Shown here piece by piece: positions 41,292 through 47,423 of a stretch of 63,947 nt of DNA. Every line of letters starts with the position of its first letter. Position 1 is the stretch's first letter. The notes under the pieces are model-generated. The model did no database searches. It saw only the letters and a program-made list of their open reading frames with translations, and had not been told where the DNA came from. The stretch is from SAR202 cluster bacterium AG-426-M11. GTDB lineage: Bacteria > Chloroflexota > Dehalococcoidia > Lucifugimonadales > UBA826. Where the stretch lies: the NCBI GenBank assembly GCA_003213095.1, contig QCNV01000006.1:1-63947 (forward strand), given 5' to 3'. Made by a program: the position numbers and the translations under genes.

Positions 41292-41297
41292 GAGGTG
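41292..41297 (+). promoter_or_regulatory. Shine-Dalgarno site for trmL
   Basis: GAGGTG lies 5 bases before the ATT codon at 41303 and overlaps a TGA stop (41291-41293) in the trmL frame. It is the main evidence that translation starts here and not at the internal ATG at 41417. Confidence 0.55.
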
Positions 41298-41302
41298 ATT
41301 TA

Positions 41303-41800
41303 ATTTTCAATATAGTTCTTTTTAATCCAGAAATTCCAAATAACACAGGAAACATTATTCGGCTGTGTGCGAATACAGGTTCTGATCTACATATCATTAA
41401 TCCTACGGGTTTTGATATGACTGAAAAAAAGTTGAGAAGAGCTGCTTTAGATTATTCTGATCTCACGTCAGTTTATATGTACGATTCATTTGAAGAATAT
41501 ACTAATCTATTGTCGGGTAGGCTATTTATGACCTCTTCTAAAGCAGGAACTAAATACGATCAAATTGAATATCAGGTAGGAGATACTTTTGTATTTGGCC
41601 CAGAATCTGTAGGGTTGCCACAAGAAATACTAAATTTATCTAAAAAAGAAAATCAGCTTTATATTCCTATGACTCCTGCAAATAGAAGTATGAATTTAGC
41701 TAATGCAGTGTCTATAATAGTTTATGAGGCTTGGCGTCAAAATGATTTTGGTGGAAGCATACTTTCCGGTGACAAAAATGACGGAGAATATTATGACTAG
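41303..41800 (+). CDS. trmL: tRNA (cytidine/uridine-34-2'-O)-methyltransferase, apparent ATT start
   Basis: A SPOUT-class methyltransferase modifying the wobble base of tRNA-Leu. Reading the frame upstream of ATG 41417 restores the family N-terminus: FNIVLFNPEIPNNTGNIIR, LCANTGSDLHIINPTGFDM. The C-terminal SAM-knot has FGPESVGLPQEIL and IPMTPANRSMNLANAVSI. The frame opens after TGA at 41291 and holds no ATG, GTG or TTG before these residues; ATT 41303, 5 bases after GAGGTG, is the best start, giving 165 residues. Starting at ATG 41417 would delete the conserved first 38 residues. Confidence 0.85.
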   Translation: MFNIVLFNPEIPNNTGNIIRLCANTGSDLHIINPTGFDMTEKKLRRAALDYSDLTSVYMYDSFEEYTNLLSGRLFMTSSKAGTKYDQIEYQVGDTFVFGPESVGLPQEILNLSKKENQLYIPMTPANRSMNLANAVSIIVYEAWRQNDFGGSILSGDKNDGEYYD

Positions 41801-45768: not shown

Positions 45769-46173
45769 TTATTTTTTGATAATTACTGATAAAAGTAATA
45801 AAAGTCCAACAGGAACATAATAAAGTCCTGTTGGACTTAAAAACATATATGTTCCCATTAACAAAACTGTTCCCCATGTGTAGAGTTTCCATCGAAACCT
45901 AATAGCATTATTTGATGACTTTTGTGTGGCCATCAAGTTGGAAATGAGACAAACTCCTGAAATTATCCAAGGAAATACAATTATTGGTAACGACAGTGAG
46001 AAGTTGGATTCTAAAATAGTTTGATAGGATTGAATTGATTGTGTAAACCCTTGGCTATTACTAATTATTTCAGTTGCTGGTACTACTGGGAAAATTAATA
46101 ATATTAGTCCTGTAGGGATACTAAGTAAGTGTGCTGCGCCTGCAAAAATTGTAGAAATAGAAAAACTTTTCAT
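45769..46173 (-). CDS. Small four-helix membrane protein of unknown function
   Basis: A 134-residue hydrophobic protein with four predicted helices (about residues 8-30, 60-80, 95-112 and 115-132) and no recognised motif. Its start overlaps the recF stop by 4 bases (ATGA), so it is coupled to recF. A perfect 13-bp inverted repeat lies inside its 3' end, encoding the LSPTGLYYVPVGLL region, and may act as the operon terminator. Confidence 0.55.
   Translation of the reverse strand: MKSFSISTIFAGAAHLLSIPTGLILLIFPVVPATEIISNSQGFTQSIQSYQTILESNFSLSLPIIVFPWIISGVCLISNLMATQKSSNNAIRFRWKLYTWGTVLLMGTYMFLSPTGLYYVPVGLLLLLSVIIKK
45802..45838 (-). terminator. Perfect 13-bp inverted repeat inside a coding sequence (terminator candidate)
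   Basis: AAGTCCAACAGGA (45802-45814) and TCCTGTTGGACTT (45826-45838) flank an 11-base loop. On the minus strand the stem is followed by TTATTACTTTT, a loose U-tract. It falls about 33 bases before the end of the recF-coupled membrane gene and could terminate that operon, or oppose the convergent DUF35 transcript. Confidence 0.45.
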
Positions 46174-47327
46174 GTTTTTTTCTCTGAAATTTCACCATTA
46201 TTAATTTCTAAAAGGTTTGATTGGTTTTTAAATGATTGACTAATTATTTCAGGTTCAGCAGTAGTAATAATCGATTGATCAAACATTGTTGTCATATCTA
46301 AAATTTGTTCCCTTCTTTCTAAATCTAGCTCTGAAAGTAAATCGTCTAGTAACAAAATTGGAGTAGTGTTTCTTGATCGTTTCAGAATTTCTGCTTCTGC
46401 AAATTTTAATGCTAACACTGCAGTTCTGGCTTGTCCCCTCGAAGAAAACCTATGTGAATCTAAATCATTAATAAAAATTTGAAAATCATCTCTGTGGGGC
46501 CCGATTGATGTTGTTCCTGCAGAAATATCTCTTGATCTATTGGAAATCAGTTGTGAAGAGATAAAATCAAAACACTTTTCAGGATTCATTGGGTATATTT
46601 CCTTAGTACTGGGTAGATATGAGCAATACATGTTTTCTTTTAAATTACTCATTTCTTTATGTATGGGGTTGGATAAATTAGATAAATTTTCTAATATCTC
46701 AACTCTTTTAATAATTAAATCAGTTGCTAATTTGGCAGATTGCGAATCCCAATATGACAATTCATTGTCCTGAGAATTACCCTCTCGAATTAACTTAAGA
46801 AGACTATTTCTTTGAGAGTTGATTTTTTGAAAATCTAATAGATTTTTTAAATAAATTTTGTCAATTTGTGAAATTAAAATATTTAAATACCTTCTTCTCG
46901 AGCTGGGAGTACCAAAAACTAAATCTAATTCAGCAACTGAAAATAAAACGGAATTTAAATTACCAACAAAATCGCTGGCACGTTTAGGAATTCCATTAAT
47001 TTTTATGAATTTTTGTGCTACAAATCCATCTTTGTTATCAAATGGCTCGCATTGATAGTGTATTTCTAGCTTTGTACTTTTTTCTTGAAGTTGAATGTCA
47101 CAAGCAATTTTAGAGTAAGACAAGCCGTTTACAGAACCTTCTGTGATGAGGTCTCTTTCAGTATTTCCTCTGTATGATTTTGCTACAGAAAGCATATAAA
47201 TTGCTTCAAGAAAATTACTTTTTCCTTGGCCATTATTTCCCATTAAAAGAGTAACTTTATCTGGCAAATTAATATCTAGGTTTTGATAGTTTCTGAAATT
47301 TCTGAGCGAGAGATTTGAAATATGAAT
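46170..47327 (-). CDS. recF: DNA replication/repair protein RecF, apparent ATT start
   Basis: ABC/SMC-like ATPase that loads RecA at gaps. The N-terminus reads HISNLSLRNFRNYQNLDINL, the typical RecF first strand, and is in frame upstream of TTG 47267. The frame opens after TAA (47345) and holds no ATG, GTG or TTG before it; ATT 47327 follows AAGGA by 8 bases, giving MHISNLSLRN and 385 residues. Walker A GNNGQGKSN then falls at 30-38; SRGQARTAVLALK and LLLDDLLSELD carry the signature and Walker B. Starting at TTG 47267 would remove a conserved strand. Confidence 0.9.
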   Translation of the reverse strand: MHISNLSLRNFRNYQNLDINLPDKVTLLMGNNGQGKSNFLEAIYMLSVAKSYRGNTERDLITEGSVNGLSYSKIACDIQLQEKSTKLEIHYQCEPFDNKDGFVAQKFIKINGIPKRASDFVGNLNSVLFSVAELDLVFGTPSSRRRYLNILISQIDKIYLKNLLDFQKINSQRNSLLKLIREGNSQDNELSYWDSQSAKLATDLIIKRVEILENLSNLSNPIHKEMSNLKENMYCSYLPSTKEIYPMNPEKCFDFISSQLISNRSRDISAGTTSIGPHRDDFQIFINDLDSHRFSSRGQARTAVLALKFAEAEILKRSRNTTPILLLDDLLSELDLERREQILDMTTMFDQSIITTAEPEIISQSFKNQSNLLEINNGEISEKKT

Positions 47328-47335
47328 GATTAGAA

Positions 47336-47340
47336 TCCTT
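47336..47340 (-). promoter_or_regulatory. Shine-Dalgarno site for recF
   Basis: The minus strand reads AAGGA, 8 bases before the ATT codon at 47327. The annotatable TTG at 47267 has no such site. Confidence 0.55.
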
Positions 47341-47423
47341 ATTTATGACTCGGTATCACGATTTTAGCATGAGATACAATCAAGATTCATATAAACTGGA
47401 TTCATTAACAATAGGAGGATTTT

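Follow-up and report, generated by a model that had tools for sequence, protein, structure and literature searches.

A conserved AUH start codon at recF of SAR202 bacteria that may hold RecF synthesis low

Where does translation begin in a gene whose conserved N terminus lies upstream of every conventional start codon? The question is raised by recF of SAR202 cluster bacterium AG-426-M11, which lies on the minus strand of the 63,947-nt stretch of DNA analysed here (the window). Comparison with named genomes places the window, contig 6 of its MAG, in the SAR202 cluster (Chloroflexota, class Dehalococcoidia), closest among named records to SAR202 ALOHA_A2.5_119 and an uncultured Chloroflexi MAG, at 93–94% identity. 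From an in-frame stop codon onwards this strand reads TAA (47345) ATA AGG ATT CTA ATC ATT (47327) CAT ATT TCA AAT CTC TCG CTC AGA AAT TTC AGA AAC TAT, which translates as *IRILI-IHISNLSLRNFRNY. A first-pass annotation had noted that there is no ATG, GTG or TTG (NTG) from TAA 47345 to the conserved RecF N terminus and that AAGGA stands 8 bases before ATT 47327 (47340–47336, spacer 8 nt); a reading of the sequence bears out both points. The features of the window on which the argument draws are the following.

46170..47327, minus strand: recF coding sequence, 385 amino acids read from ATT 47327, assigned by its TIGR00611 match and by alignment with 14 RecF proteins of the same family
47325..47327, minus strand: predicted recF initiation codon ATT; the homologous codon is AUH (AUU, AUC or AUA) or NTG in relatives
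47336..47340, minus strand: recF Shine–Dalgarno (SD) motif AAGGA, spacer 8 nt to ATT 47327, with equivalents in 63 of 71 AUH loci
47343..47345, minus strand: in-frame TAA upstream of the recF start, from reading the sequence
47361..47369, minus strand: probable extended −10 element TGCTAAAAT, 33 nt before the recF start, proposed from its sequence
41303..41800, plus strand: trmL, with start ATT 41303 and SD motif GAGGTGAT at 41292–41299

The product scores 299.7 bits against the RecF equivalog model TIGR00611 (cut-off 172), which identifies it as RecF, and it matches solved RecF structures with an E value of 1.5e-76. All 14 aligned RecF proteins of the family share its start position, at the same Ile codon. 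The codon common to all relatives is the one at 47327 and not ATC 47330, a second AUH codon that lies directly 5′ of it in this genus only and that the first-pass annotation had missed. Judged by comparison with relatives, translation of recF almost certainly starts at ATT 47327. The true start might instead lie elsewhere, at TTG 47267 downstream or at an upstream codon reached through a frameshift or readthrough; this TTG is the first NTG of the frame, and an ORF call restricted to NTG begins there. However, it lies twenty codons into the conserved domain, and starting there would cut off the conserved IHISNLSLRNFRNY strand. Among relatives, the first NTG comes 44 codons in at locus L024 and there is none in the first 30 codons of L010 and L235. 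Many loci have stops directly upstream, and the distance from the probable promoter to the start is mostly 19–98 nt. We regard a start elsewhere as very improbable.

The alignment of RecF orthologues that had been proposed as a check, looking for ATG at the homologous codon, returned ATT in 11 and ATA in 4 of the 15 same-family relatives and NTG in none; these starts are nearly always preceded by GGAG- or AGGA-type motifs. A wider sample comprised 88 distinct recF loci whose N terminus could be read; the start codon is AUC in 33, AUU in 27, AUA in 11, AUG in 10 and GUG in 7. AUH at the homologous codon in 15 of 15 relatives and in 71 of 88 distinct loci strongly supports the original proposal that recF starts at ATT. 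No alternative NTG occurs in codons −12 to +8 at 56 of the 71 AUH loci, an in-frame stop lies at most six codons upstream of the AUH in 22 of them, and at L179 and L213 the AUH codon comes directly after a stop. Matches to the SD sequence of at least 4 nt at a spacing of 4–11 nt accompany 63 of the 71 AUH loci, compared with 4, 7 and 11 of 71 in controls that shift the search interval upstream by 10, 20 and 30 nt, and 4 of the 17 NTG loci. The recF SD motifs are moderate, mostly matching over 4–6 nt, and the genome carries a canonical anti-SD motif, GGATCACCTCC, close to its rRNA region. An AUH start predicted at 71 of 88 loci, with an SD match at 63 of the 71, is more than chance would give.

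These counts also bear on the possibility of a sequencing or assembly error in which ATG was misread as ATT. The one point in its favour is that the genome is a draft MAG, but the same kind of codon is seen at 71 distinct loci whose sequences come from unrelated projects. One of the sources is a complete genome assembled from PacBio data, that of Ca. Lucifugimonas marina JH1073 (PMC10444878), whose recF (L185) reads TAA GGC ACT CCG ATC TTT CTA, with an ATC start and a TAA four codons upstream. The AUH codons in relatives and in JH1073 thus exclude an assembly error, to which we give a negligible probability.

Within the order, recF starts with AUH in sampled families f1, f3, f6, f16, f17, f23, f24, f27, f29, f31, f34, f36, f37, f39 and f11 (the last from L244) and with ATG, GTG or TTG in f4, f5, f7, f8, f10, f12–f15, f19–f21, f25, f26 and f30; with NTG starts in about half of the sampled families, the weak start is evidently not indispensable. 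Outside the order, 20 recF loci of the same class divide into TTG 8, GTG 5, AUH 5 (one with a nearby GTG) and ATG 2. Other Chloroflexota classes gave 19 readable loci and no AUH start among them: 18 have NTG at the same codon (ATG 9, GTG 7, TTG 2) and the remaining one has an ATG three codons earlier. These NTG codons act as a control, indicating that the comparison looks at the genuine start position. The AUH label needs 4 changes on a RecF tree, a quick one with some long branches, compared with 15.9 for shuffled labels.

Across the 69-row AUH group, the third base of the start codon has changed 15 times among AUU, AUC and AUA, and none of these changes is to AUG. Which base is used tracks local GC, with means of 0.52 for AUC, 0.39 for AUU and 0.32 for AUA loci. 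Position 3 of the protein is another frequent Ile, but there I, L and V replace one another freely, so it is not the start. The third base of the putative start codon varies like a silent site from which G is barred, the pattern expected from selection against AUG. Throughout the AUH clade, the comparison shows a predicted start position that is conserved, a conserved SD motif and no AUG at the codon. Neutral retention would explain the codon without selection, through an old drift from AUG or UUG to AUH that was tolerated thanks to a good SD motif; weak starts could be tolerable in small populations or streamlined genomes, and isolated AUH starts do occur in other genes, as in trmL of this genus. 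By contrast, the absence of any change to G among 15 third-position changes would arise at equal rates with a probability of about (2/3)^15 = 0.2%, a rough figure, and the recF SD motif has been maintained. We find neutral retention rather improbable.

We consider it probable that recF carries a weak, SD-directed and conserved start that keeps RecF low. Its AUH codon would be used in ordinary SD-directed 30S initiation with fMet-tRNA, the CAU anticodon being mispaired at the third base, and a near-cognate codon combined with a good ribosome site would give a low output of RecF. RecF is needed in very small amounts. Excess RecF would be harmful, so that the strength of the start codon would provide a simple way to hold its level low, and the weak codon would be kept by selection as it lowers RecF synthesis. 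In E. coli, RecF overexpression is extremely toxic through destabilisation of the replisome, and overexpression of its ATPase mutant is not (PMC10287930). We infer selection for lower RecF synthesis as the reason for the weak codon, within the limited reach for SAR202 of toxicity data that come from E. coli only. Regulation through the AUH start is plausible, given its conservation, a third position that is never G and the conserved SD motif. The literature that we searched holds no report of AUH starts for recF, an absence that proves little; genes preferring non-AUG starts are the subject of a preprint (Gvozdjak and Samanta 2020, cited in PMC9845219).

The surroundings of the gene would allow such control. 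SAR202 recF does not follow dnaN and is divergent to a gene that, from reading its sequence, we take to be cofD; beside it, recF appears to have its own promoter, so that start-codon strength could set the level of RecF. Extended −10 elements of the TGCTAAAAT type stand 27–65 nt before the recF start in the family, and most AUH recF loci have a TGNTANAAT-type element upstream, mostly 19–98 nt before the start. The predicted recF leader is about 27 nt long. No conserved leader fold or hairpin was found across the AUH loci, where the mean folding z is 0.0, and on this value we rejected a regulatory leader hairpin. We also set aside an upstream mini-ORF, ATG CTA AAA TCG TGA, which is probably untranscribed, as its ATG overlaps the probable −10 element. 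Several recF genes with AUG or GUG starts have a different arrangement: at L171, L172 and L176, and also at L275, a −10 element of the TGCTACAAT or TACAAT type is found 6 nt before the start codon, a spacing that suggests leaderless recF mRNAs in those Chloroflexota. Initiation on leaderless mRNAs probably requires a canonical start.

Is AUU, then, a regular start codon of this lineage, as the first-pass annotation had proposed from a second AUU start in the window, that of trmL? The trmL start itself stands: ATT 41303 follows GAGGTGAT, and the TrmL models NF007683 and TIGR00185 match the product from residue 2, with scores below their cut-offs. The two AUU starts differ, however, that of recF being conserved over many families and that of trmL being restricted to the genus, where it is ATT in 3 of 3 (L294–L296), with GTG, ATG or TTG in other genera. 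We rejected trmL as a member of a conserved AUH set for this reason.

The broader proposal of lineage-wide AUU usage did not survive a genome-wide comparison. We compared, frame by frame, 0.82 Mb of this genome (G000; 1.16 Mb, 78% complete), which is 71% of the assembly, with 1.28 Mb of G015, from another genus of the family; the sensitivity of this survey is limited where an NTG lies upstream by chance. Among the 608 non-overlapping orthologue pairs assessed, recF alone showed, in both genomes, homology extending far 5′ of every NTG once rRNA-region shadow frames, the prfB frameshift and short leader alignments had been filtered out, and larB surfaced when one-sided cases were inspected. A scan for conserved AUH codons with an SD motif, from which genes with a conserved canonical start had been removed, gave 18 ATH sites, compared with 13, 11 and 11 for the control sets AAH, TTH and GAN. 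AUH starts with SD motifs are not clearly enriched genome-wide over control codon sets, and only recF and larB are convincing conserved AUH starters among the 608 pairs.

Several other candidates are less convincing. Those seen only in G000 (uracil-DNA glycosylase, a glycosyltransferase and prmA) or only in G015 (an MFS transporter, a DEAD helicase and an SRP-type GTPase) had a weak SD motif or none, or were without support from the second genome, and glyS has a plausible TTG start with an SD motif in both. The prfB gene (G000:C1, minus-strand frame 80743) has its usual programmed frameshift site, and in both genomes compared the frame begins CVFDIEGM after an upstream stop.

The start of larB, whose product acts in nickel-pincer cofactor biosynthesis (NF033503, 294 bits), is ATA or ATC with an SD motif in all 16 family genomes, mostly after AAGGAG- or GGAGG-type motifs, and its SD motif is the best of all in the scan. 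AUH starts for larB occur in most of the sampled families of the order (G000:C5:39808, which is L309, and L310–L354), more broadly than those of recF, with ATG seen at L336 and L352. The classical AUH case is infC, whose start is AUH in some other bacteria too; it starts with ATA, followed by CCT AAA or AAG (IPKNYRVN), in 15 of 15 family relatives (L027–L041). Although infC is missing from this MAG, as fits its completeness of 78%, every one of the 15 relatives has it, as do all 33 well-completed genomes sampled from the order, and we rejected a loss of IF3 that would relax start choice.

IF3 rejects AUH codons, and infC has an AUA start of its own here, so that RecF output may follow IF3 activity, a weaker part of our proposal. 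Taken further, recF and infC, and larB with them, could form an IF3-responsive set whose translation rises when free IF3 is low, tying RecF to ribosome state or growth. The ATA of infC in all 15 relatives and the ATA or ATC of larB, with its SD motif, in all family genomes and most sampled families of the order are in keeping with such a set, as is the E. coli precedent, cited in PMC1780047, that changing the infC AUU to AUG abolishes autocontrol (Butler 1987). By contrast, LarB and RecF have no known functional link, and any AUH start would respond to IF3, whether or not this served a purpose; we think the IF3-responsive set unlikely. Slightly less likely still is a small ancient SAR202 set (infC, recF and larB) kept on AUH with its output set by IF3, which would tie the recombination capacity provided by RecF to the translation state of slow-growing cells.

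Experimentally established AUH starts are few. On the AUH position, its conservation across relatives and the SD spacing, all of which are found at recF, the predicted SAR202 start is an addition to the known genes with a conserved AUH start (infC, pcnB and ccpN). E. coli infC (IF3; AUU, autoregulated by IF3) likewise combines AUH with an SD motif and is conserved across relatives; unlike IF3, RecF is not a translation factor, and no autoregulatory loop is evident at recF. The AUU start of E. coli pcnB limits expression, according to Binns and Masters 2002 as cited in PMC13009471 and PMC1780047. Like recF, pcnB (poly(A) polymerase I) joins a weak start to a product that is probably needed at a low level, but it is another gene in another phylum. 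Over many families the recF codon has shifted between AUU, AUC and AUA, and its limiting effect is putative. The AUA of ccpN in S. aureus and B. subtilis and the AUU of staphylococcal cvfC1 resemble recF as conserved non-canonical AUH codons directed by an SD motif (PMC13009471). In S. aureus, ccpN (AUA), cvfC1 (AUU) and citZ (AUA), with extended SD motifs, give about 10% of the output of AUG in poor medium (PMC13009471). The SD motifs of ccpN and cvfC1 are extended, whereas that of recF is moderate, and the recF start is predicted from sequence comparison.

The DNA-repair gene recF has retained a putatively weak start across many families, with a third base that moves between U, C and A without ever becoming G. 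It would be a clear natural example of selection for weak initiation, one that the cultured Ca. Lucifugimonas marina makes testable. For annotation, the consequence is that in many SAR202 genomes gene callers limited to ATG, GTG and TTG will call recF and larB too short or in the wrong place, and a shortened recF lacks the strand with which the RecF ATPase domain begins.

Two recF loci are irregular in other ways. That of G012 (L025 and L026, G012:C6:35579-36720) is split into two overlapping frames by a frameshift or an assembly error. A second recF-like gene (L012, G002:C56:2472-3566), with 40% identity, occurs in the MAG of a congener, for which 8% contamination is listed, and probably represents contamination from another SAR202 family.
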